A DNA stretch of 23,256 bases from a virus: the IMG/VR virus record IMGVR_UViG_3300031576_000275, positions 1-23,256 of that record, one strand, 5' to 3'. The position numbers and the translations under genes were made by a program. The notes under the pieces are model-generated. The model was not told the origin of the DNA. It worked only from the letters and a program-made list of their open reading frames with translations, and searched no databases. Positions 2,364 through 22,286 of this stretch are shown here, piece by piece (positions within the stretch are counted from its first letter, which is position 1; every line of letters starts with the position of its first letter).

Positions 2364-2857
2364 CAGAGAAAATACGAAATTTGTGTTTTAGTTGGGGTGC
2401 TTGTAAGGTTCCCCCAGTTGGGATAGAACTTGCTGAGGCAACACCTGTTCAGTTACAATGGATAAGTAATTATTTACCAAAGTTATATCAAATATTAAGG
2501 TTTAAAATTCGACAATTTAATAATTATTTAAACGGAAACAGAGACGGATACGGATACGGATACGGGGACGGATACGGGAACGGATACGGAAACGGATACG
2601 GGAACGGATACGGAAACGGATACGGGGACGGATACGGGGACGGAGACGGATACGGGGACGGAGACGGATACGGGGACGGAGACGGATACGGATACGGGAA
2701 CGGATACGGGGACGGATACGGGGACGGATACGGGGACGGAGACGGATACGGATACGGATACGGGGACGGATACGGGAACGGATACGGAAACGGAGACGGA
2801 TACGGATACAGAGACGGATACGGAGACGGAAACAAAGGGTTTTTAGACTTTTTCTGA
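2354..2857 (+). CDS. Gly-X dipeptide repeat protein
   Basis: An ORF overlapping the DUF6948-like gene. The start is uncertain: GTG 2354 (used here) or TTG 2339, as there is no in-frame ATG. The N-terminal 55 residues are an ordinary globular-looking segment with CFSWGACKVPPVGIE and a hydrophobic/basic helix (WISNYLPKLYQILRFKIRQF). The remainder is about 50 dipeptides of Gly with Tyr, Asp or Asn (DGYGYGYGDGYGNGYG and similar), ending NKGFLDFF. Strict alternation of Gly with polar or aromatic residues suggests a repetitive beta-type or disordered fibre or adhesive surface. The frame is fully open through 300 bases of repeats, and replacement changes only GGA/GGG and the X codon, both signs that protein coding is maintained. 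Function unknown; antifreeze-like, adhesive or phase-separating roles are speculation. Confidence 0.6.
   Translation: MVLTEKIRNLCFSWGACKVPPVGIELAEATPVQLQWISNYLPKLYQILRFKIRQFNNYLNGNRDGYGYGYGDGYGNGYGNGYGNGYGNGYGDGYGDGDGYGDGDGYGDGDGYGYGNGYGDGYGDGYGDGDGYGYGYGDGYGNGYGNGDGYGYRDGYGDGNKGFLDFF
2531..2839 (+). repeat. Hexanucleotide tandem repeat (GGNNAC)n
   Basis: About 50 copies of a 6-base unit GG(A/G)(T/G/A)AC, mainly GGATAC alternating with GGGGAC, GGGAAC, GGAAAC and GGAGAC. Higher-order units are visible, for example the 18-base GGATAC-GGGGAC-GGAGAC block repeated near 2630-2690. Every unit is 6 bases, so gain or loss keeps the reading frame of the gly-rich protein. GC content is well above that of the flanking sequence. 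Confidence 0.95.
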
Positions 2858-2867
2858 TAAATAACTT

Positions 2868-2949
2868 ACTCCCGTGGCGGAACTGGTATACGCATCAGAC
2901 TTAAAATCTGACACCTTTGGGTTTGTGGGTTCAAATCCCACCGGGAGTA
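2868..2949 (+). tRNA. tRNA-Leu (anticodon UAA)
   Basis: An 82-base cloverleaf. The acceptor stem is ACTCCCG pairing with CGGGAGT, and the discriminator is A. The D stem is GCG/CGC, and the anticodon stem is TCAGA/TCTGA with loop CTTAAAA, giving anticodon TAA. There is a long class II variable arm, and a T stem GTGGG/CCCAC with loop TTCAAAT. The long variable arm and anticodon agree on leucine. CCA is not encoded (TTA follows the discriminator). It is the first of three tRNAs interleaved with protein genes. Confidence 0.95.
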
Positions 2950-2953
2950 TTAT

Positions 2954-3143
2954 GAAACTATCTTGCGTTCGCGATAAGCTTGATAGTTCCAGCAAAGGAA
3001 TGTTCAGGTATGACACTAAGAGTGTCCTGTGCTGGACAATTTCTTAAGGCCAAGAAACCGAGAACCATAACGAGGCGTCACTTAGCCGGAGAAATACCGG
3101 GATATTAAAATAATAAACACGCCTACCTTTGCTGTTTTAATAT
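2954..3143 (+). ncRNA. Candidate structured RNA with possible pseudoknot
   Basis: No convincing ORF occupies this interval, but complementary segments fill it. Helix 1 is AACTATC 2956-2962 with GATAGTT 2982-2988, capped by TTGC/GCGA. Immediately adjacent, CCAGCA 2989-2994 pairs with TGCTGG 3030-3035, and inside it CAG/CTG and GACACT 3012-3017 with AGTGTC 3021-3026. The 3' strand 3021-3035 is therefore paired continuously. Downstream, AGGCGT 3073-3078 pairs with ACGCCT 3119-3124, and ATATTAAAA 3102-3110 with TTTTAATAT 3135-3143. These last two cross, so they would form a pseudoknot, with a CCGG/CCGG hairpin (3086-3100) inside. I do not recognise a known RNA family. It may be a regulatory leader for the gene at 3174 or an independent RNA. 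Confidence 0.4.
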
Positions 3144-3173
3144 TTTAAAAATGGTTGTTAGTGGAGATAGAAA

Positions 3174-3623
3174 ATGAAAAAGACTCTTTTATGTTGTTTA
3201 CTTTTAGCACCTTTTACCTTTTCTCAACAATATAATCAACCGGCAGCTTCTCTATTTGTTCCAGGGATAGATTTTTCACAAATACCTCCTTATATAATAG
3301 ATTTTCAAAGTTTATACCCAGGTGGAGCTTGGACTTCAATTACTATCGTAGGCAATATTAATCAAATTTGGTGGTTAGCTGTTTCTGCCGGTCCTCCTGT
3401 ACCTGGGTGTATGACATTGCCGTGTGGAGATATAATTGATCTTGACTGTAATAATTTTGTAATTCAGTTTGTAGGTATGACAGGAATTACAAACGGTGTA
3501 GTAAATATTCCTATTTTATATATGCCTTATATTCCTGCATATCAGGTAACATTACAAGCTGTTATTTCTACTAATGATTTTTGTGGATATGAATTGACAG
3601 CGGCAGTTTCTATCCGACTTTAA
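3174..3623 (+). CDS. Secreted beta-rich protein with signal peptide
   Basis: A 149-residue protein, ATG 3174 after GGAGATAG. The N-terminus KKTLLCCLLLAPFTFSQQ is a classical Sec signal peptide (two Lys, hydrophobic core, likely cleavage after FTFS). The mature part is strand-rich, with few charges, many Pro, Gly, Ile, Val and Tyr, and Cys residues in GCMTLPCG, DLDC and DFCG that could form disulfides outside the cytoplasm. It ends TAAVSIRL. The pattern loosely resembles repeated domains in secreted planctomycete proteins; this is a weak impression, not a match. It sits between two tRNA genes with no virion or replication neighbour, so it looks like an accessory (moron) gene that alters the host envelope. 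Function unknown. Confidence 0.7.
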   Translation: MKKTLLCCLLLAPFTFSQQYNQPAASLFVPGIDFSQIPPYIIDFQSLYPGGAWTSITIVGNINQIWWLAVSAGPPVPGCMTLPCGDIIDLDCNNFVIQFVGMTGITNGVVNIPILYMPYIPAYQVTLQAVISTNDFCGYELTAAVSIRL

Positions 3624-3631
3624 AAATTAGG

Positions 3632-3703
3632 TGGACATTAGCTTAATGGTAGAGCAGGGGTCTTATACACTCCAGGTCATAGGTTCGATTCCTATATGTC
3701 CTA
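3632..3703 (+). tRNA. tRNA-Ile (anticodon UAU), unusual 1-72 pair
   Basis: A 72-base cloverleaf. The acceptor is TGGACAT with ATGTCCT, which leaves T1 opposite T72, and the discriminator is A. It has T8 A9, D stem GCTT/GAGC with loop AATGGTA, and anticodon stem GGGGT/ACTCC with loop CTTATAC, so the anticodon TAT is at 3664-3666. The variable loop is AGGTC and the T arm is ATAGG/CCTAT with TTCGATT. All other stems are sound, so the gene is probably functional. UAU-anticodon tRNA-Ile is rare in bacteria, which usually read AUA with a modified CAU tRNA. CCA is not encoded. Confidence 0.88.
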
Positions 3704-5590: not shown

Positions 5591-5613
5591 GGCTGTAGGA
5601 GCCCTACAGAGCC
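5591..5613 (+). other. GC-rich hairpin in the gene-free stretch before the RNA polymerase
   Basis: CTGTAGG 5593-5599 and CCTACAG 5603-5609 form a perfect 7-bp stem with loop AGC. It is extended by GG 5591-5592 and CC 5612-5613 across a bulged A. No T-run follows, so it is not an obvious intrinsic terminator. It abuts the dispersed repeat at 5610-5690. The whole interval 5562-5777 lacks a convincing gene and holds this hairpin, the repeat and a candidate host promoter. Confidence 0.55.
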
Positions 5614-5690
5614 TTATGAGGCGTATAGATTGTCTAAAGGCCCAACTGGTCTAAAGGGGGTCCAGATGCCCTATAAGGCTTCCTATTGCG
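5610..5690 (-). repeat. Dispersed repeat, copy A
   Basis: Read on the minus strand from 5690, this matches 22155-22235 (+) at about 60 of 81 positions without gaps by my count. The match includes the core AATAGGAAGCCTTATAGG and the segment CCTTTAGACNATC. It has an internal inverted repeat (AGCCTTAT 5610-5617 with ATAAGGCT 5673-5680). The part on the minus strand at 5661-5700 also matches two separate pieces of 16342-16371 inside the exonuclease gene (GCCTGTAAA, then CTTATAGGGC...TGGACC). GC content is higher than the flanks. Role unknown: promoter, origin or mobile repeat are options. Confidence 0.75.
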
Positions 5691-5724
5691 TTTACAGGCA
5701 AGCTGTTTAGTTTGTGGCCGGCTT

Positions 5725-5847: not shown

Positions 5848-6054
5848 ATGGATAAATATTATGCTCGTCGATCTATCACAACTAATGGCTATACTATTAT
5901 GGAGCGTTCTATAGTCAAAAATAAAATACGAGAGTCTCTTATTTGTCGTACTCCACGTGGAGATATTGTTACTTTATTGTTAAAACATTTAAATACTCCA
6001 CAAAATAAACTTGCTTCTTTTTGTAATAGTTGTCAGGAATATCATAATTGGTAA
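5848..6054 (+). CDS. Hypothetical protein, 68 aa
   Basis: ATG 5848, with AGGA 8 bases upstream. The 68-residue product is basic at the N-terminus (MDKYYARRS), with a middle RTPRGDIVTLLLKHLN and a C-terminal Cys pair CNSCQEYHNW that could be half a zinc site. It overlaps the start of the RNA polymerase gene by 7 bases. No family recognised. Confidence 0.55.
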   Translation: MDKYYARRSITTNGYTIMERSIVKNKIRESLICRTPRGDIVTLLLKHLNTPQNKLASFCNSCQEYHNW

Positions 6055-8462
6055 AAAAACTCCTAACACCTTCAGAAGTTTCATTAATGATTTCTGAACT
6101 TGGTTTGGAGAGATATAGTAGAACTATAACTAAGGCTTCAGAAAGAGGTCAGGTTTCGACAACTAAACCTGGACAGATTTTATTAGATACTGCTATAGAC
6201 AAGTTTTCTAAAACATTAGAAGAATGGTTGGTTTTGGCTCAGACTCGACCTGGACCTAAACATTCGTGTTACCAGTATCTTAAGCAGTTAAAACCTGAAG
6301 TTATAGCTTTTATAACTGCCCAAATTGTAATAGATAACATTACCCTCTCGATAGCTATACAAAGTTCTGCACTAACTATAGCTAATGCTTTAGAAGAGGA
6401 AGTTCGGTATAAAGAAGTTAAGAAGAAAATTCCTGAAGATTGGAAACAACTCACACGACGTTATAACTATACTCATGAAGGTCATAAGAGAAAAGTTATA
6501 AAGGCTGCTGTAAGTAGATTAGATTTAGAATGGAAACCCTGGAATGTTGTAGATAAATACAATGTTGGTTTCTTGTTACTTGAGTTATTCGCAGTTACTA
6601 CTGGATTTATAGAAATTGGTTACATGAATACTGGTCCTAAGAGACGTAGGACTGTCGTTCGTGTTACTAATGATCTTATAAAGTGGTATACAGATAGTAA
6701 TGAGGATCATAAAGCTAAGTTTCCATTTTATTTACCACTTGTTACTCTACCTGAAGATTGGATAAGCCCTAATGAGGGTGGTTATCCTGCCAATATTATT
6801 ATGCGGTGGCCTTTGGTTCACCAGTACAATAAGAAGGCAAGAAAGCAGGAATATAAAGAAATTCCAGAAGTATATGATGCTGTAAATGCTTTACAGAAAG
6901 TTCCTTGGAGAGTAAATGAGTTTGTTTGGGAAGTTTTTAATTATTACTGGACAAATGGTTTAGCTGTAGCAGATATTCCTGCGGCAAATCTACAACCATT
7001 ACCAAATAGACCAGATGATTTTAAAACTAATATTGTAGCTAAGAAACAGTGGAAAAAACAAGCTCATGCTATATACAATATCAATGCTCGATTAGGAAGC
7101 AAGAAAACTTTATATGGTAAAATCCACTTCATTGCTAAGCACTATCAACATCAAGATTTCTGGTATCCCTACAAACTTGATTTTCGCGGAAGGGCTTACC
7201 CAATACCGGCCTTCCTTAATCCTCAAGGTTGTCCGCTCGCTAAGGGAATGCTTCGGTTCTCTGAAGGGAAACGTATCTCCACTGACTCAGCAAGGGGATG
7301 GTTCTATATTCATGGAGCTAACTGTTGGGGAGTAGATAAAGTTAGTTTTGAGGATCGTTTACAATGGGTAGAGGATAATGAAGAAAATATTATCAAGGTT
7401 TATGAAGATCCTATCTCTAATCGGTGGTGGGAAGATGCAGACTCCCCGTGGGAGTTTCTTGCATGGTGTGAAGAGTTTGGAAAGTGGAAAGAAGATCCTG
7501 ATATACTAAGTTATCTTCCTATAGGAATGGATGGGACCAATAATGGACTTCAAATTTTCTCATTGCTTCTCAAAGATCCCGTTGGGGCTGCTTCGACTAA
7601 TGTTAGCCCCGCTGATAAACCTCGGGATATTTACCAAGAAATCGCAGATATTGTTACAATTAATTTAAGAGAAGAAACAGATGAGAAGAAACAAAGATTA
7701 GCTAATAATTGGTTAGCTTTTTGTAGTGGGAAGCTTCCGCGTGAAGCTACTAAAAGACCTGTTATGGTCTTACCTTACGGTGGCACACCTTATTCTATTA
7801 GACTATATGTAGAGGATTGGTATGAGGAGATTCTTTATAACAAGAATCTCATGTTAAACAGACCATTCCCAGATACTTTTCCACATACAAAGTATTTAAC
7901 AGATTTAATTTTAGGAGCTATCGCGAAGGTTTTAGTCGGCGCTGTTCAAGGTATGGATTGGTTTAGACAAGTAGCAGCGGTGTGTACGGAGAATAAAACA
8001 CCGTTGATTTGGCAGACACCGACTGGTTTCGAGATCTTTCAGGCATCGCTGAACTACAACTCAGTGAATATAAGAACACAGCTTGGCAAGATCCATAGGA
8101 TGCGCTCGGTTCGGATACCGAATACTAATCTGTCGGCGCGTGGTCAGAAGAATGGTATCAGTCCCAACTTTGTACACGGTTTTGATGCTGCGCTTATGAT
8201 TAAGACGACGAATAGGTGTGTGCAAGAGGATATTCGGGCTCTTGCGATGGTCCATGATAGGTTTGCTACTCATGCTGATGATTGTCCGAAGATGGCAAGT
8301 ATTTTAAGAGAGGAAGTGGTTAAAATCTTTTCTATTGATCAACTAAAGAATTTTAAGGAACAAATAGAAAAATTGATACCTGGAGTTATATTACCAGATC
8401 CTCCAGGTATGGGTGTATTGGATATTAATTGTGTTTTAGAGAGTAAATACTTTTTTGCGTGA
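6048..8462 (+). CDS. T7-type single-subunit DNA-directed RNA polymerase
   Basis: An 804-residue enzyme (T7: 883) that transcribes phage genes from phage-specific promoters. The N-terminal domain carries KPGQILLDTAIDKF and YLKQLKPEVIAFITAQ, similar to the T7 PTAFQFLQEIKPEAVAYI segment. DFRGRAYPIP (around residue 385) is the family signature. Motif A is PIGMDGTNNGLQ with catalytic D495 (T7 D537). Motif B is REATKRPVMVLPYGG with K569 and Y577 (T7 K631, Y639). Motif C is MVHDRFATH with H736 and catalytic D737 (T7 H811, D812). Key residues are all present. The start is TTG 6048 with AGGA about 10 bases upstream; the first in-frame ATG (6087) would remove 13 residues. The promoter-specificity loop lies near residues 660-690 (RTQLGKIHRMRSVRIPN) and differs from T7, so recognition should differ too. 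Confidence 0.97.
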   Translation: MVKKLLTPSEVSLMISELGLERYSRTITKASERGQVSTTKPGQILLDTAIDKFSKTLEEWLVLAQTRPGPKHSCYQYLKQLKPEVIAFITAQIVIDNITLSIAIQSSALTIANALEEEVRYKEVKKKIPEDWKQLTRRYNYTHEGHKRKVIKAAVSRLDLEWKPWNVVDKYNVGFLLLELFAVTTGFIEIGYMNTGPKRRRTVVRVTNDLIKWYTDSNEDHKAKFPFYLPLVTLPEDWISPNEGGYPANIIMRWPLVHQYNKKARKQEYKEIPEVYDAVNALQKVPWRVNEFVWEVFNYYWTNGLAVADIPAANLQPLPNRPDDFKTNIVAKKQWKKQAHAIYNINARLGSKKTLYGKIHFIAKHYQHQDFWYPYKLDFRGRAYPIPAFLNPQGCPLAKGMLRFSEGKRISTDSARGWFYIHGANCWGVDKVSFEDRLQWVEDNEENIIKVYEDPISNRWWEDADSPWEFLAWCEEFGKWKEDPDILSYLPIGMDGTNNGLQIFSLLLKDPVGAASTNVSPADKPRDIYQEIADIVTINLREETDEKKQRLANNWLAFCSGKLPREATKRPVMVLPYGGTPYSIRLYVEDWYEEILYNKNLMLNRPFPDTFPHTKYLTDLILGAIAKVLVGAVQGMDWFRQVAAVCTENKTPLIWQTPTGFEIFQASLNYNSVNIRTQLGKIHRMRSVRIPNTNLSARGQKNGISPNFVHGFDAALMIKTTNRCVQEDIRALAMVHDRFATHADDCPKMASILREEVVKIFSIDQLKNFKEQIEKLIPGVILPDPPGMGVLDINCVLESKYFFA

Positions 8463-8480: not shown

Positions 8481-9107
8481 ATGACTATACAATTCAAGAA
8501 CTTTTTAGGTAAGCCACGTTCTGTTACAACTCCTACTGGTATTTTTCGTTTTCCTGCCTTACAGGAAGCTCGTAAGAATCCCTTTAAGGAGGATCAAATG
8601 GAATATCAGTGTAATATAGCACTGACTCCTGATGAAGCAGCACCATTATTGCAAGAGTTAGATGTACTATTTCAAGAGAACTTGGCGAATGTTGCCCAAG
8701 ACAATAAGAACCTTAAGTCTATCAAGGCATCTAATAAACCTTATGGTGAGGAAAAGGATAAGGAAGGTGTACCTACAGGTTTTATTGTTTTCCGAACCAA
8801 GGCGTTAGCCGGCGGTATTTCCAAGAAAACAAATAAACCTTGGGAGTTCCGTGTTAAGCTGTTTAATGCCGATCTCTCGCCATTTACTGAGGCTGTGCCT
8901 ATTGGTGGTGGAACCAAAGGTAAGTTACAGTTTGATGTGACTGGTTATTATGTTAAGGGTGAAGCAGGGATTAAATTGAATCTTCGTGGAGCCCAGATTC
9001 TTAAGTTCGTGCCTGCTGGTAAGTCTAAGGGAGAAGATTTTGGTTTTAAGAGTGAGGATATGCCTTCGGATGATGTTCAAGCTTATGATTCGGGAGTGAG
9101 TAATTAA
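8481..9107 (+). CDS. Single-stranded DNA-binding protein (gp2.5-like)
   Basis: A 208-residue protein in the T7 gp2.5 position, just after the RNA polymerase. It has the features of phage SSBs: TPTGIFRFPAL near the N-terminus, an EYQCNIALTPDEA segment, an internal loop rich in Lys and Asn, and VKLFNADLSPF followed by LQFDVTGYYV and GIKLNLRGAQILKF (OB-fold strands). The tail is acidic (SEDMPSDDVQAYD), as expected for contact with polymerase and helicase. T7 gp2.5 has 232 residues. The function is coating and organising ssDNA at the fork. Identification rests on context, length and pattern, as this family diverges strongly. Confidence 0.85.
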   Translation: MTIQFKNFLGKPRSVTTPTGIFRFPALQEARKNPFKEDQMEYQCNIALTPDEAAPLLQELDVLFQENLANVAQDNKNLKSIKASNKPYGEEKDKEGVPTGFIVFRTKALAGGISKKTNKPWEFRVKLFNADLSPFTEAVPIGGGTKGKLQFDVTGYYVKGEAGIKLNLRGAQILKFVPAGKSKGEDFGFKSEDMPSDDVQAYDSGVSN

Positions 9108-11926: not shown

Positions 11927-12123
11927 TGTTAACTCAAAAATATTTTAAAATATTTGCAAATCTTTTATATAACTATAAGCCTTATAATCCCAATTCTCAT
12001 ATAACAGATGAAGAGTTATTATGGAAAAATATGGTTACAGAAATAGGAGATATCTGCCAAGCTGATAATAGCAATTTTGATCGCGGTAGATTTGAATATT
12101 GGTGTGAGAATGGACATTCCTAA
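11926..12123 (+). CDS. Hypothetical phage protein, 65 aa
   Basis: A 65-residue protein translationally coupled to the primase-helicase (TAATG). It begins MLTQKYFKIFANLLYNYKP, has an acidic middle, and ends NFDRGRFEYWCENGHS. The pattern of an initial aromatic helix and a terminal F.R.RFE.WC is common to small phage proteins linked to replication modules. No assigned role. Confidence 0.6.
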   Translation: MLTQKYFKIFANLLYNYKPYNPNSHITDEELLWKNMVTEIGDICQADNSNFDRGRFEYWCENGHS

Positions 12124-13022
12124 TGGGTTATTTACATATAGAAAATATTTATAGACCTGAAGCACAACGTATACTTTGTTTTAAACACTTATATGCCCTC
12201 GAAAAAATTCATGGCACTTCTGCACATATTCGATTAACTCCAGAAGGTTTTGGGTTATTTTCTGGTGGTGAACCTCATGAAGCTTTTGTTGCTTTATTAG
12301 ACGGCAAACAAATGTGTACGCAGGAAAATTTAAAGTCTCGCTTAACACAAGTTCTTGCTGTGGGGTCTTCCTCCTCAATCATAATTTATGGGGAACTTTA
12401 TGGTGGCAAGTGCCAAGGGATGCGAAAGCTTTATGGGGATCAATTAAAGTTCGTTGCTTTTGATGTAAAGATAGATGGTTTCTGGTTAGAGGTTCCAAAA
12501 GCTGCACAGATTTGTATAGAGTGTGGTATTGATTTTGTTGATTATAAACTTATCCCTGCAGAGGAGACAGCAATAGATGTTGAACGAGATAGACCTTCTA
12601 CTCAAGCAAGTAGAAACGGCGTACTTGAAGCTCAAATCCGCGAGGGAGTTGTGCTTCGTACCCCTATCGAAGTTATCCTCAATAACGGAGCAAGACTTAT
12701 TGCAAAGCACAAGCGACCAGAATTTAGTGAACGAGGTAAGCCGCCGCCTGCGTTTACGCCTGAAAGACTTCATATCTTAGAAGAGACAAATGCGATTGTT
12801 ACTGAATGGTGTACAGAGATGCGCCTTACTCATGTTCTCGATAAGCTTGGCAACCCTATCGAACATAGGTTCATTCCTGATATTGTGCGGGCAATGGTTG
12901 AAGATATCGAGCGGGAGGCAAGCGGGGAGATTGTTAGTGGGAAAAACGTGCGAAAAGCAATAGGGCATAAGACAGTGCAAATGTTTAAGCAAAGAATACC
13001 AAGGATTTTGAGAAATGGCTAA
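12123..13022 (+). CDS. RNA ligase, Rnl2-type nucleotidyltransferase
   Basis: A 299-residue protein with the covalent nucleotidyltransferase motifs. Motif I is EKIHGTS with K28 as the predicted AMP-lysine. Motif III region is IYGELYGGKCQGM (about 96-109), followed by FVAFDVKIDG (116-125). Motif IV is REGVVLR, and motif V is LIAKHKRPEFSE. The K-x-H-G-T form and the VAFD block are typical of the T4 Rnl2 and RNA-editing ligase group, not of DNA ligases. A helical C-terminal domain of about 90 residues follows. In T7 a DNA ligase (gene 1.3) sits near the RNA polymerase; here no DNA ligase is seen. It may seal nicked tRNA or other RNA, fitting with the phage tRNAs and the HAD protein. The reaction on the natural substrate is inferred. 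Confidence 0.85.
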   Translation: MGYLHIENIYRPEAQRILCFKHLYALEKIHGTSAHIRLTPEGFGLFSGGEPHEAFVALLDGKQMCTQENLKSRLTQVLAVGSSSSIIIYGELYGGKCQGMRKLYGDQLKFVAFDVKIDGFWLEVPKAAQICIECGIDFVDYKLIPAEETAIDVERDRPSTQASRNGVLEAQIREGVVLRTPIEVILNNGARLIAKHKRPEFSERGKPPPAFTPERLHILEETNAIVTEWCTEMRLTHVLDKLGNPIEHRFIPDIVRAMVEDIEREASGEIVSGKNVRKAIGHKTVQMFKQRIPRILRNG

Positions 13023-13638: not shown

Positions 13639-15418
13639 ATTAATATTAGACCTTGAAACGAACGGTCTATTACATAACTATCAACTCGCAGAAGTAGGTG
13701 CAAAGGAAGTAGCTTCTAAGATCTGGTGTATCTGCGCTATCAATGTGGATACTGGACAGGAATATCGAGTTCGGCCTGATCAAGTAAATCATTGGATCAA
13801 TGAAATTTGGAATCCAACTCTATTAATTGGACACGATATTCAGGCATTTGATATTCCTGTTATTTCTAAATTCACCGGAGTAACTTATAATGGACCAGTA
13901 TTTGATACTAAGATCGCCGCAAGGCTTGTATTTCCGGATACGAAACTCGACGACTGGCGTTCTTCCATTTCTGGTAAACCGTGGAATATGTTGCCCAAAG
14001 CACTTAGAGGATCTCATACGCTCAAAGCCTGGGGAATTCGTCTCGGTGTGTTCAAAGGGGATCGCACCAAACAAGACTTCTCTCAATTTTCTGAAGAGAT
14101 GCTGGAATATTGTATGCAGGATTGTCGGGTTACTCTGGCACTTTATAAGAAGATTATGGAGATGGCTCCTACGGAAGCGTCTCTAAAGGTAGAACATGAA
14201 TTTAGTAAAGTAATCGACCAGCAAAAATTAAATGGGTTTACGTTAGACCTGAAAACAACCCAAACATTCTTAGAACGTTTGCAAAAAGAAAGGCTGAAAT
14301 CAGAAGATGAACTTAAATCTCTCTTTCCTTCAAGACTTGTCGAATTCACAACTCCAGTCAAAAAGTTCCCAAGAACTAAAACTATTATCTTCAATCCTGG
14401 ATCTCGCGATCAAATCGCCTGGAATCTTACCGCAAAATACGGATGGAAACCAGACAAATTTACAGATACAGGAAAACCTCAAATTGATGAGGAAGTGTTG
14501 TCAGGACTTGATTACCCTGAAGCAAAGCGCCTCGTAGAATATTTATTATTACAAAAGCGTATAGGCCAAATTGCAGAAGGAGATAATGCTTGGTTAAAGT
14601 TGGTGCAAGATGATGAAAAAATACATGGCGGTGTTAACACTAACGGAACAGTTACCGGACGTTGTTCCTTCATTGCCCCCAATATGGGTCAAGTGCCGAG
14701 AGTGGGAAACCCTTATGGCAAAGAATGTAGAGGATGCTTTACAGCTTCACCGGGAGGGTTACTTGTTGGTTGTGACGCTTCCTCTATTCAACTTCGGTTA
14801 CTTGCACATTTATTAGCCAAATACGATAATGGAGAATATAGCAAGCTCGTTACAACCGGGGACATTCATGAATGTAACCGACAAGCGGCAGGATTGGAGT
14901 CTCGAAATCAAGCGAAAACTTTTATCTACGCTCTCCTTTTCGGAGCAGGATCAAAAAAGATTGCTCAAATTGTGGGGCGATCTCCAGGAGAAGGTAGACA
15001 GTTACTCCAAACCTTCTTTCGAGCTATACCTGCATTTCGACGACTTAACGATGACATTAGAAAAGTTGTTGAGGTTCGCCAGAATTTGCAAGGACTTGAC
15101 GGAAGAAGATATCCGGTTCGGTCAGCGCACCTCGGATTAAGTGTCTTATTACAGGGTTATGAAGCAGTAATCATGAAGACTGCTACTATTAACTTGCATA
15201 AAGAACTTCAAAAGAAAGGCTTAGTGCATGGTACAGATTATAAACAAGTTCTTCATCTCTATGATGAAAACCAGTTTGATGTTCCAACACAGGAAATTGG
15301 TAAATTAGTTGGAACTCAACAAGCTGAAGAAATTTTCAAAGCAGGAGAGTTTTATAAAATCCGCTGTCCTCTCGCTGGAGAATGGAAAATGGGCTTCTCC
15401 TGGGCAGACACCCACTGA
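13634..15418 (+). CDS. Family A DNA polymerase (T7 gp5-like), non-AUG start
   Basis: The first in-frame ATG (13745) would lose the first exonuclease motif, since the frame upstream encodes ILDLETNGLL (D6, E8). A TAA at 13631-13633 limits the extension, so the start is probably ATT 13634 (ATA 13643 is another choice), with GGTGAG just upstream. The chain of 594 residues (T7: 704) has Exo I DLETNG, Exo II IGHDIQAFDIP, Exo III YCMQDCRVT, Pol A VGCDASSIQ (D381), Pol B RNQAKTFIYALLFGAG (R424, K428), and Pol C HLYDENQFD (D544, E545). It ends GEWKMGFSWADTH like T7. Motif C has Tyr and Asn where T7 has His and Ile. The thumb is shorter than T7's, and whether thioredoxin binds is unknown. This is the replicative polymerase. 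Function is secure; the start is inferred. Confidence 0.93.
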   Translation: MKLILDLETNGLLHNYQLAEVGAKEVASKIWCICAINVDTGQEYRVRPDQVNHWINEIWNPTLLIGHDIQAFDIPVISKFTGVTYNGPVFDTKIAARLVFPDTKLDDWRSSISGKPWNMLPKALRGSHTLKAWGIRLGVFKGDRTKQDFSQFSEEMLEYCMQDCRVTLALYKKIMEMAPTEASLKVEHEFSKVIDQQKLNGFTLDLKTTQTFLERLQKERLKSEDELKSLFPSRLVEFTTPVKKFPRTKTIIFNPGSRDQIAWNLTAKYGWKPDKFTDTGKPQIDEEVLSGLDYPEAKRLVEYLLLQKRIGQIAEGDNAWLKLVQDDEKIHGGVNTNGTVTGRCSFIAPNMGQVPRVGNPYGKECRGCFTASPGGLLVGCDASSIQLRLLAHLLAKYDNGEYSKLVTTGDIHECNRQAAGLESRNQAKTFIYALLFGAGSKKIAQIVGRSPGEGRQLLQTFFRAIPAFRRLNDDIRKVVEVRQNLQGLDGRRYPVRSAHLGLSVLLQGYEAVIMKTATINLHKELQKKGLVHGTDYKQVLHLYDENQFDVPTQEIGKLVGTQQAEEIFKAGEFYKIRCPLAGEWKMGFSWADTH

Positions 15419-15785
15419 TGCCTACTTCGCGGGTTTCTTTGACGGAGAAGGTTGCTTCCGTTGGTCCTGTTCTCGTGTTGGGCATACCGGCGGCACTCCT
15501 CGGGTGTGTGTTAGCAATACTTACCTACCTATTCTTAAATGTCTTGCTGTTAGGTTCGGCGGGCGTATCTTACTTAAACAAGAAACTACCGAAAAATTCC
15601 GGACATGCTATGAATGGTACTGTACAGGCTCTAATGCTCGGGACTGTATCCGGTCAGTCCTGCCTTACTTAAAAGAAAAACAAGAGCAAGCCCGACTTGT
15701 CCTTATGATGGGGCAGGTTCATCCGGTGTTTAGACCAGGGTTTATTAAGAAATTAAAGGAGTTGAAAAAAATAGATTATAAATGA
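15309..15785 (+). CDS. LAGLIDADG-type homing endonuclease overlapping DNA polymerase
   Basis: The open frame extends from TTG 15309 to TGA 15783-15785 (158 codons). The motif is AYFAGFFDGEGCF (about 38-50 from 15309), matching the LAGLIDADG signature A..AGF.DGEG with catalytic D/E. The rest, with RVCVSNTYLPILKCLAVRFGG and YEWYCTGSNARDCIRSVLPY, reads as one LAGLIDADG domain that would work as a dimer. The first 110 bases overlap the last codons of DNA polymerase in the +1 frame, and no ATG is found. It may start at TTG 15309, at ATA 15354 after AGGAGAG, or by +1 frameshift at the polymerase stop region. It ends in ATGA with the exonuclease gene. A selfish or domesticated element inserted at the polymerase end is inferred. 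Confidence 0.75.
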   Translation: MELNKLKKFSKQESFIKSAVLSLENGKWASPGQTPTDAYFAGFFDGEGCFRWSCSRVGHTGGTPRVCVSNTYLPILKCLAVRFGGRILLKQETTEKFRTCYEWYCTGSNARDCIRSVLPYLKEKQEQARLVLMMGQVHPVFRPGFIKKLKELKKIDYK

Positions 15786-17586: not shown

Positions 17587-19221
17587 ATGATATACAAACC
17601 GGATGGCAATGCGGCCGAAATTTATGAGGCGCTTAAGCCGATCCGGGATAACTTCCTGAAGAGAGCGGAGAGGTCTTCAGCATTAACTATCCCTATGCTT
17701 ATACCAAGGGATTCCGAAAGACGAACAGGGAGTATCGCAGAGTTTGATACTCCAAGACAAGGTATTGGGGCTCGTGGCGTTAACCATCTTTCCTCTCGTT
17801 TACTTCTCACTCTCCTTCCGTCAGGAGCCCCATTTTTTAAATACAGTATAGATGCCTTTGCATTAGATCAGTTATCACAACTTGATCCTAATGTGCAATC
17901 TCAAGTAAAAGCTACATTAGCCCAAATAGAAGATTCTGTACATCATTATGTGGAAACAGAAGCATTACGTGTCCCCTCTGCTGAGATTTGTAAGCATCTG
18001 ATTGTGGCTGGTAATGCCTGTCAAGCCTTTCCGAAGCGTGGAGGAATGACATTCTATCCTCTCTCGCAATATGTCTGTGTTAGAGATCCTGATGGGGATG
18101 AAGTTATGGACTTTGTTCTTCGGGAGTGCATAGACAAAGCTGCTTTAGATCCTAAGCTTTTAAAACTTTATGAGGCTTCTCTTAAGCAGTTACAATATGA
18201 GGGAACTAAAGCACCGAAAGCCCCTAAAAACTCCTCTGAAAGCTCTGAGGAATACGTTGAGATATATACCCGCCAGTATCTTGAGGACAAGAAATATTAT
18301 GTCCGGCAAGAATTCTCTAATGGTTTGGTAATCCCTGGATCTGAAGGGTCTTATAAAGTAGATGCTGTGCCATATAATCCTTTACGTTGGACTAAAGTTC
18401 CCGGCGAGGCATATGGTCGCGGTCTTATCGAGGAATACATAGGCGATTTGATCTTCTTAGAAGCTCTCTCACAAGCCTTGATAGAAGGTGCCTTAGCTTC
18501 GGCTCGTGTTGTCGGTCTTGTTAGGCCCAATAGTTCTACTCATCCATCTGATATAAATAATGCCAAGAATGGCGAGTTTATTACAGGTGTAGAAGATGAT
18601 GTTAAGTTTTTACAGGTAGAAAAATATGCCGATCTTAGGACTGCTTCAGAAACTGGCGCTCGTATTGAAAAGCGTCTTGAAAGTGCTTTCCTTCTTAATT
18701 CGAGTGTTACCAGGAATGCAGAAAGAGTTACAGCAGAAGAAATCCGATATGTCGCCCAAGAGTTAGAAACAGCTTTAGGTGGTGTCTATTCCATATTGGC
18801 ACATGAGTTTCAACTTCCGTTAGTCAAAATGATTTTGGCACGGTTAGAAAAGAAGGGGGTGATCCCAAGATTTCCACCCTCATTAAAGGAGAAGGTCAAA
18901 CCAGTCATTATTACAGGAGTAGATGCTCTTGGTCGTAATGCTGAGTTAGAGCGCCTTCGTGCAGCCTTTACTATCTTTGCAAGCATTGTCGGTCCTGAAA
19001 TGGCAGCCAGTGTGATGAAACCTGGAAATGTTGGAACCTTTGTATTCTCCCAAGCAGGGGTGACTACTAAAGGTCTTATCATGACGCCTCAAGAGATTGC
19101 TACCCAAAATGCAGAGAAACAGCGTATGGCTGCGTTACAAGAAACTATTAGCAAGGGTGTTGGTCCAGCAGTTAATGCTGTATCCAAAGCTACCAGTGAA
19201 CAACAAGGAGTTCAGAAGTAA
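17587..19221 (+). CDS. Head-tail connector (portal) protein, T7 gp8-like
   Basis: A 544-residue protein (T7 gp8: 536). It has the family-typical N-terminus (EALKPIRDNFLKRAERSSAL then PMLIPRD), the GIGARGVNHLSSRLLLTLLPSGAPFF block (about residues 58-84), YNPLRWTKVPGEAYGRGLIEEYIGD, and the helical tail NAERVTAEEIRYVAQELE. It forms the dodecameric ring at one capsid vertex through which DNA is packaged and the tail attaches. It ends 0 bases before the scaffold ATG (TAAATG). Confidence 0.96.
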   Translation: MIYKPDGNAAEIYEALKPIRDNFLKRAERSSALTIPMLIPRDSERRTGSIAEFDTPRQGIGARGVNHLSSRLLLTLLPSGAPFFKYSIDAFALDQLSQLDPNVQSQVKATLAQIEDSVHHYVETEALRVPSAEICKHLIVAGNACQAFPKRGGMTFYPLSQYVCVRDPDGDEVMDFVLRECIDKAALDPKLLKLYEASLKQLQYEGTKAPKAPKNSSESSEEYVEIYTRQYLEDKKYYVRQEFSNGLVIPGSEGSYKVDAVPYNPLRWTKVPGEAYGRGLIEEYIGDLIFLEALSQALIEGALASARVVGLVRPNSSTHPSDINNAKNGEFITGVEDDVKFLQVEKYADLRTASETGARIEKRLESAFLLNSSVTRNAERVTAEEIRYVAQELETALGGVYSILAHEFQLPLVKMILARLEKKGVIPRFPPSLKEKVKPVIITGVDALGRNAELERLRAAFTIFASIVGPEMAASVMKPGNVGTFVFSQAGVTTKGLIMTPQEIATQNAEKQRMAALQETISKGVGPAVNAVSKATSEQQGVQK

Positions 19222-20138: not shown

Positions 20139-20248
20139 CCAGGTACGCCTGGATAACTTAGAAATCTCTGGATAACTGTAGTGAAAGCTGTTGTGTGCTG
20201 ATAAAGCACGTTACTCTTTTACCGAACAGCTTTATAGGAGATTTCTCA
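20139..20248 (+). promoter_or_regulatory. Structured leader before the major capsid gene
   Basis: The space between tRNA-Glu and the capsid has a hairpin CCAGG-TACG-CCTGG (20139-20152), a direct repeat CTGGATAACT (20149-20158 and 20168-20177), and a long stem AAAGCTGTT 20184-20192 with AACAGCTTT 20225-20233. That stem encloses GTGCT-GATAA-AGCAC (20195-20209). The TAGGAG ribosome-binding site follows the stem directly, 9 bases before ATG 20249. It may stabilise the capsid mRNA or be a processing site, as T7 late mRNAs are processed by RNase III. No phage promoter is recognised with confidence. Confidence 0.5.
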
Positions 20249-21406
20249 ATGGCTGTTTCTACTTTTGGTCGTCCGGGTCTTGATGGCACCGGAACTGCAC
20301 CAGCCGCAAACCTTCTCAAAGTCTTTGCTGGCGAAGTTATCACTAACTTCCAACTGAATCAAATGTTCCTGGGTTTAACCCAGATGAAGAATGTTTCAGG
20401 TGGAGCGATTTCGTGGGACTTCCCTGTTGTCGGTGGTGCTACTGTGTCGTATCATACTGCGGGTTCTAATGTTCTTACGGACGATGATAATATCGCGGGT
20501 CGTAAGTATCTGAAGAAAGTCCTTGCTGCGAAGCGTACTGTCCATATGGATAAGTCGCTTGTGGCTCCCGTGTTCTTTGATCGTCTTGATGAGAAGCTTT
20601 CTCACTATGATTATCGTGGTAAGGTTGCTGGTCAGTTAGGCGAAGCGTTGGCCCGTACTGTGGATATGAATATCCAGCGGTTACTTTGGGCTTGCGGTTT
20701 AGCGGCTGGTGGCGCGACTATCACTGGCGGTTATCCTGTGGGTACCTTCGGTTCAACGTCTAAAAATGTTGGTGCATTTTCTGCCCTGACCTCGGCTGCG
20801 CTTGTCAAATCGCTTTCTGATATGAAGATTGCGTTTGATAACAAGCTTGTGCCCCGTGATGGCCGGTTTGCAACGATGGCCCCTGATGTCATGGCGCGGT
20901 TGTTTATTGATAGCAACTCGACGATTCCAGGTCTTCAGTGGGTTGATAGGGATTTCAGTGGTATGCCGGTGTCTAACGGGTCTTTCAAGGATGGAAAGGT
21001 TCCCCACCTTTTCGGATTTACTCTTTTAGAGACTCCTAACAGTGACTTCGGCGCTGTTACTGAAACGTATGGTCCTTACGATACTGCTGGTAACTTAGGT
21101 GGTCTTGGTGCTGATGATGGTGTTGCTAATACTACGAATTATAATCTTTATGATTCGGCGTTAGCAGTTACTAATCAGGCTGTTACGTCTAATAACGACT
21201 ATACTGCTACCTATAACTCCGGCACTTCTACGCCTATTGCTCTTTGTTTCCAGCAAGAAGCCATTGGTACAGTGAAGTTAGAGGATCTCTCGGTTGAGTC
21301 GGAATACATGATTGAGTATCGTGGTAGCCTTGTGGTTGCCAGTATGACGCTCGGTCACGGCATTCTGCGCCCCGAGTGTATCGGTGTTATCGGAGACCTT
21401 TCGTAA
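20249..21406 (+). CDS. Major capsid protein, T7 gp10-like
   Basis: A 385-residue protein. The open frame goes back to 20195, but ATG 20249 follows TAGGAG at the proper distance and gives the typical MAVSTFGRPG start. Visible blocks are VFAGEVITNFQLNQMFLGL, SWDFPVVGGATVSYHTAG, HMDKSLVAPVFFDRLDEKL and the helix GQLGEALARTVDMNIQRLL (HK97-fold spine), and the C-terminus LVVASMTLGHGILRPECIGVI. It is longer than T7 gp10A (345). The middle to late part, with FGAVTETYGPYDTAGNLGGL and a TNNYT-like insert, is probably a surface loop. Codon use is more GC-rich than in the early genes, as expected for a highly expressed gene. Confidence 0.95.
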   Translation: MAVSTFGRPGLDGTGTAPAANLLKVFAGEVITNFQLNQMFLGLTQMKNVSGGAISWDFPVVGGATVSYHTAGSNVLTDDDNIAGRKYLKKVLAAKRTVHMDKSLVAPVFFDRLDEKLSHYDYRGKVAGQLGEALARTVDMNIQRLLWACGLAAGGATITGGYPVGTFGSTSKNVGAFSALTSAALVKSLSDMKIAFDNKLVPRDGRFATMAPDVMARLFIDSNSTIPGLQWVDRDFSGMPVSNGSFKDGKVPHLFGFTLLETPNSDFGAVTETYGPYDTAGNLGGLGADDGVANTTNYNLYDSALAVTNQAVTSNNDYTATYNSGTSTPIALCFQQEAIGTVKLEDLSVESEYMIEYRGSLVVASMTLGHGILRPECIGVIGDLS

Positions 21407-22154: not shown

Positions 22155-22242
22155 CGTAATAGGAAGCCTTATAGGCTCTCCAACCCCTAAGTAGACCAGT
22201 AGCACCTTTAGACCATCCAAACGCCCTATAAGCCTTCCTATT
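22155..22242 (+). repeat. Dispersed repeat, copy B, with promoter-like core
   Basis: Matches the reverse complement of 5610-5690 at about 60 of 81 positions. It ends in inverted arms: AATAGGAAG-C-CTTATAGG (22158-22175) and CCTATAAG-C-CTTCCTATT (22225-22242), 9 + 8 bp with one C-C mismatch and a 49-base loop. The + strand also reads TAATAGGAAGCCTTATA then GGCTCT, the same 17-base layout as the T7 promoter TAATACGACTCACTATA then GGGAGA (12 of 17 identical by my count). It lies in the gap before tail tubular protein B, which may be transcribed from here. Promoter status is a hypothesis. Confidence 0.7.
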
Positions 22243-22286
22243 GAGTTTGGGAGGGTTTTACAAAGATACCTTGGAGACTGAACGAT

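Follow-up and report, generated by a model that had tools for sequence, protein, structure and literature searches.

Genomic setting

The window, by which we mean the whole stretch of 23,256 nucleotides that was analysed, comes from an uncultured T7-like phage, as identified from its RNA polymerase, portal, and major head protein genes. The closest phage records shared only ~ 35% with the window RNA polymerase. By the same protein, the nearest IMG/VR contigs were L006 (59% identity) and L087 (82% over a 50-aa core), the only two moderately close relatives of the lineage that the searches gave. The folded stretch, 2954-3143, sits between tRNA-Leu and a 149-aa ORF, with tRNA-Ile next, so that the whole segment is flanked by tRNA genes. 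The surrounding genes are co-oriented. The main features are as follows.

2867..2950, + strand: tRNA-Leu (UAA), upstream neighbour (ARAGORN, Rfam)
2952-3047: 31-aa ORF, ATG preceded by GGGAG
3174..3623, + strand: ORF of the 149-aa orphan protein, signal-peptide-like start
3632..3703, + strand: tRNA-Ile, downstream neighbour of the whole segment (ARAGORN, Rfam)
6048-8462: RNA polymerase gene
17587-19221: portal gene
20195-21406: major head protein gene

The 149-aa protein had no relative in viral contigs, phages, plasmids, genomes, or PHROGs; its ORF is a candidate cis target of a folded leader. Within 2954-3143 there is no ORF of at least 80 aa, in agreement with the original prediction, which described the stretch as gene-free. 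The first part might instead code for the 31-aa peptide, whose frame opens from an ATG with GGGAG before it, the complementarity being incidental. We consider this highly improbable: 31-codon frames are frequent by chance, the peptide had no relative in phage records, and the would-be Shine-Dalgarno falls inside the tRNA.

The ORF directly before tRNA-Leu (2339-2857) ends in a long Asp/Gly/Tyr/Asn repeat with a 12-base unit in ~ 22 registers. The phage has four tRNA genes; alongside them, an RNA ligase family protein (12123-13022, phrog_548) and a protein with a HAD_SAK_2 ‘RNA repair’ domain (140-637) possibly form a tRNA-repair kit. Moreover, a LAGLIDADG-like ORF with weak Pfam matches (15309-15785) overlaps the 3′ end of the DNA polymerase ORF (13745-15418) and is possibly a homing endonuclease insertion.

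Helices of the intergenic stretch

Watson-Crick helices of at least 6 bp were listed systematically over 2954-3143. Eight were found, compared with a mean of 3.3 in shuffles of the stretch, and eight were seen in 1.5% of shuffles. All complementary segments named in the original prediction, which did not spell out P1, were present at the right coordinates. The proposed helices are listed below.

2956-2962/2982-2988, + strand: P0 hairpin, AACTATC/GATAGTT (fold and helix listing)
2990-2998/3126-3134, + strand: P1, CAGCAAAGG/CCTTTGCTG, 9 Watson-Crick pairs, closing the domain 2990..3134
3001-3007/3032-3038, + strand: P2, including a U-G pair
3012-3017/3021-3026, + strand: P2b (helix listing); P2 and P2b span 3001..3038
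3040-3045/3052-3057, + strand: P3 hairpin, TTTCTT/AAGAAA (fold and helix listing)
3073-3078/3119-3124, + strand: P4, AGGCGT/ACGCCT, enclosing P5
3086-3100, + strand: P5 hairpin, CCGG/CCGG, inside P4
3102-3110/3135-3143, + strand: PK, proposed pseudoknot helix, ATATTAAAA/TTTTAATAT, 9 bp, unproven

The domain closed by P1 contains the hairpins P2/P2b and P3 plus stem P4; P3 is rivalled by another pairing in the minimum-energy fold. P0 and P1 are separated by the single base C2989, as anticipated for two upstream helices stacking end to end. PK would cross both P1 and P4. The 3′ strands of P1 and PK abut (3126-3143), and the two helices could stack on each other. P2 is lost on the reverse strand, and its U-G pair is consistent with the + strand. 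All proposed helices stop ~ 30 bases ahead of the start codon of the 149-aa ORF, and the ribosome-binding site (GGAG at ~ 3162, before the ATG) lies outside them. No terminator was found after PK.

Stability of the nested fold

The nested fold was more stable than its dinucleotide shuffles, with z from about − 3.0 to − 3.6. We obtained z = − 3.13 for 2952-3145 and z = − 3.57 for 2990-3134, and a repeat run gave − 3.0 and − 3.1 for two spans. Only 1-3 in 200-500 shuffles matched the energy. Addition of 27 bases of 3′ flank, for a span of 2986-3173, weakened z to − 1.57.

The background z-scores in the window had a mean of about − 0.6 and a standard deviation of about 1.4 (− 0.62 and 1.37; 578 tiles of 160 bases). 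At least 29 of the 578 tiles reached − 3.1 or lower, many of them inside genes, and the 30 best tiles by z all start outside 2801-3140. As similar or better values are common elsewhere in the window, coding parts included, the nested-fold z carries less weight. The tile counts favour a reading in which 2954-3143 is spacer DNA between genes, with complementary segments that serve no selected function and drew notice because many windows were read. The rarity of equally stable shuffles argues against such a chance origin, which we regard as a serious contender, though not the favoured one.

The crossing helix

Among 4000 shuffles of 2954-3143, a single one had two crossing helices of at least 9 bp, which also speaks against chance. 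We counted arrangements of 9 + 9 bp with abutting 3′ strands and a span of up to 200 in 6.5 Mb of strand, with repeats and near-identical loci collapsed. Besides the window, 12 places had such a crossing, six of them with an inner 6-bp stem. This corresponds to about one crossing in every 0.5 Mb of strand of unrelated phage and bacterial DNA, and ~ 0.04-0.09 would be expected in a window of this size; these counts are in line with the chance reading.

In a pseudoknot-aware search with a crude energy model, the best crossing pairing of the 2954-3143 RNA differed from the proposed PK. The energy was ~ − 44.0 with PK (stack − 7.4, nested − 42.1, stacking bonus − 1.5, cost + 7) and − 42.5 without it, a gain of ~ − 1.5 kcal/mol at a pseudoknot cost of 7 kcal/mol. 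The best gain observed for any pseudoknot was 1.8 kcal/mol, and 24% of shuffles gained at least as much from some pseudoknot. Since the proposed pairing is not the best-scoring one and its gain is typical of shuffles, the pseudoknot is unproven. The interpretation in the original prediction is partly supported: the branched nested fold does better than its shuffles and no Rfam family matches, and the crossing helix exists, although its stability does not exceed chance and it was chosen after looking.

These results bear on a more novel reading, in which the stretch would represent a previously unseen class of small RNA with a pseudoknot, lying in the tRNA array of an uncultured T7-like lineage and serving as a ribozyme or a riboswitch-like regulatory leader that controls the secreted protein. 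Such an element would accord with the crossing helices with abutting 3′ strands, the gene-proximal location, and the absence of a match to a known class. The shuffle-like PK gain argues against it, as do the ribosome-binding site, which is not overlapped by helices, and the lack of a terminator formed by them. Furthermore, no relatives were found, whereas known classes mostly recur widely. We consider this very unlikely.

Search for relatives

Rfam 15, searched with the whole window, returned only tRNAs at the gathering threshold, and only a tRNA fragment and chance matches at a permissive E-value. No family matched 2954-3143, which bears out the statement that no known ribozyme or riboswitch class is recognisable. 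By eye, the core motifs of hairpin and hammerhead ribozymes are absent. The 9-bp inverted repeat could in principle mark the ends of a mobile element, but the window has no second copy of the region.

The blastn search of 2951-3175 against phages and plasmids gave short AT-rich chance pieces only. A covariance model, R1, built from this one sequence and its nested pairs, was run over ~ 300 loci, comprising related-phage loci, the full L006 and L087 contigs, and exact-pattern loci. No convincing relative was found among them, although a single-sequence model is insensitive and could miss distant relatives; the full contigs of the two nearest clade phages, L006 and L087, had no match to the RNA. 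The best other scores were 14.3 bits (L063), 15.1 bits (L216), and 23.2 bits (L302). The first is the end of a ribonucleotide reductase gene and the last an intergenic terminator-like hairpin; both lack P4 and PK and were taken as chance. The L216 locus shares the searched pattern by construction. Three viral-contig scans and one genome-contig scan for exact patterns (junction, P5, and P1′/PK′ segments) gave no match with the surrounding fold. No homologue, and hence no covariation, emerged from these searches, which is also compatible with the chance reading.

Other structured elements in the clade

In L006, a closed two-hairpin domain with a 10-bp closing stem (7197-7272, z = − 3.9) lies between tRNA-Gln and tRNA-Met and is followed by a terminator-like hairpin. 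Its sequence is unrelated to that of 2954-3143; structured tRNA spacers therefore occur elsewhere in the clade.

A long intergenic hairpin (5608-5694) lies just upstream of the RNA polymerase gene of the window and is conserved in L006, where the corresponding position (9008-9092) holds a hairpin of 72% identity. Second, inverted copies are found in the late region of the window (~ 22155-22246, reverse strand) and in L006 (1728-1824, reverse strand). The four copies, two from each phage, can be aligned; the changes between them are mostly one-sided, and the covariation term is not favourable. Before its own polymerase gene, L087 likewise carries a long hairpin (2340-2420), which differs in sequence. 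T7 has RNase III processing sites around gene 1, which hairpin 5608-5694 resembles in position and form.

Comparison with known RNAs

ROOL and GOLLD are phage RNAs often found close to tRNA islands (PMC12286853). The stretch 2954-3143 likewise lies near phage tRNA genes, directly after one and ahead of another, as a free-standing small non-coding RNA of the array might. However, the ROOL and GOLLD Rfam models had no match in the window at the gathering or permissive threshold. These RNAs of phages or prophages contain pseudoknots, several hundred bases, and deep, covariation-supported conservation, whereas our stretch has ~ 190 bases, a pseudoknot that is only proposed, no match, and no relatives.

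T4 has small structured stable RNAs, C and D, within its tRNA gene cluster, and they are processed together with the tRNAs. Our structured stretch is similarly placed; nevertheless, RNAs C and D are detected RNAs, while the present one is known from DNA and was compared with phage records only by blastn. A free-standing RNA is further disfavoured by its small size relative to ROOL and GOLLD, by the lack of a terminator after PK, and by its absence from the nearest clade relatives. We find it unlikely, yet less so than a ribozyme or riboswitch, because the helices neither cover the ribosome-binding site nor form a terminator.

The pseudoknot in the mRNA leader of T4 gene 32 offers another parallel, a folded leader upstream of a phage gene. 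In our case, no binding protein is known and the proposed pseudoknot is longer-range and without covariation support. In HCV-type IRES elements, a branched domain with a basal closing helix has a loop pairing to bases just 3′ of that helix. The likeness to 2954-3143 is in topology only; the window is from a bacterial virus, has an ordinary ribosome-binding site, and shows no sequence relation, and the IRES function is not expected.

A possible structured leader of the secreted-protein mRNA

We tentatively favour, with a probability of about 0.4, that 2954-3143 acts as a structured leader for the mRNA of the orphan secreted protein, shielding it after tRNA processing, and that this leader is specific to the phage and evolves fast. 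The most economical view is of a structured leader or tRNA spacer with poor conservation. Between tRNA-Leu and the secreted-protein gene, the RNA would form a nested branched domain (P0; P1 with P2, P3, P4, and P5), to which a weak pseudoknot may add a cap. The mRNA would be cut from a longer early transcript via tRNA processing, probably upstream by 3′-end trimming of tRNA-Leu and downstream by RNase P at tRNA-Ile. The folded leader may then keep the 5′ end of this short mRNA from being degraded while the ribosome-binding site stays open.

The leader reading is favoured by the nested-fold z of about − 3 to − 3.6, the strand preference of P2, the place between tRNAs and co-oriented genes, the site before the ATG lying outside the helices, and the unrelated closed domain in the tRNA array of L006. 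Against it stand the lack of a homologue and of covariation, the orphan status of the downstream gene, the frequent comparable or better z in the window, and the weaker z when the flank to 3173 is included. It competes closely with plain chance; next in probability comes a free-standing RNA, followed by a ribozyme or riboswitch. As a single sequence without relatives found, the RNA mainly shows how frequent convincing-looking crossing helices are in phage DNA. If real, it would be a further example of a structured leader or small RNA from the tRNA array of a phage, here in a T7-like lineage.
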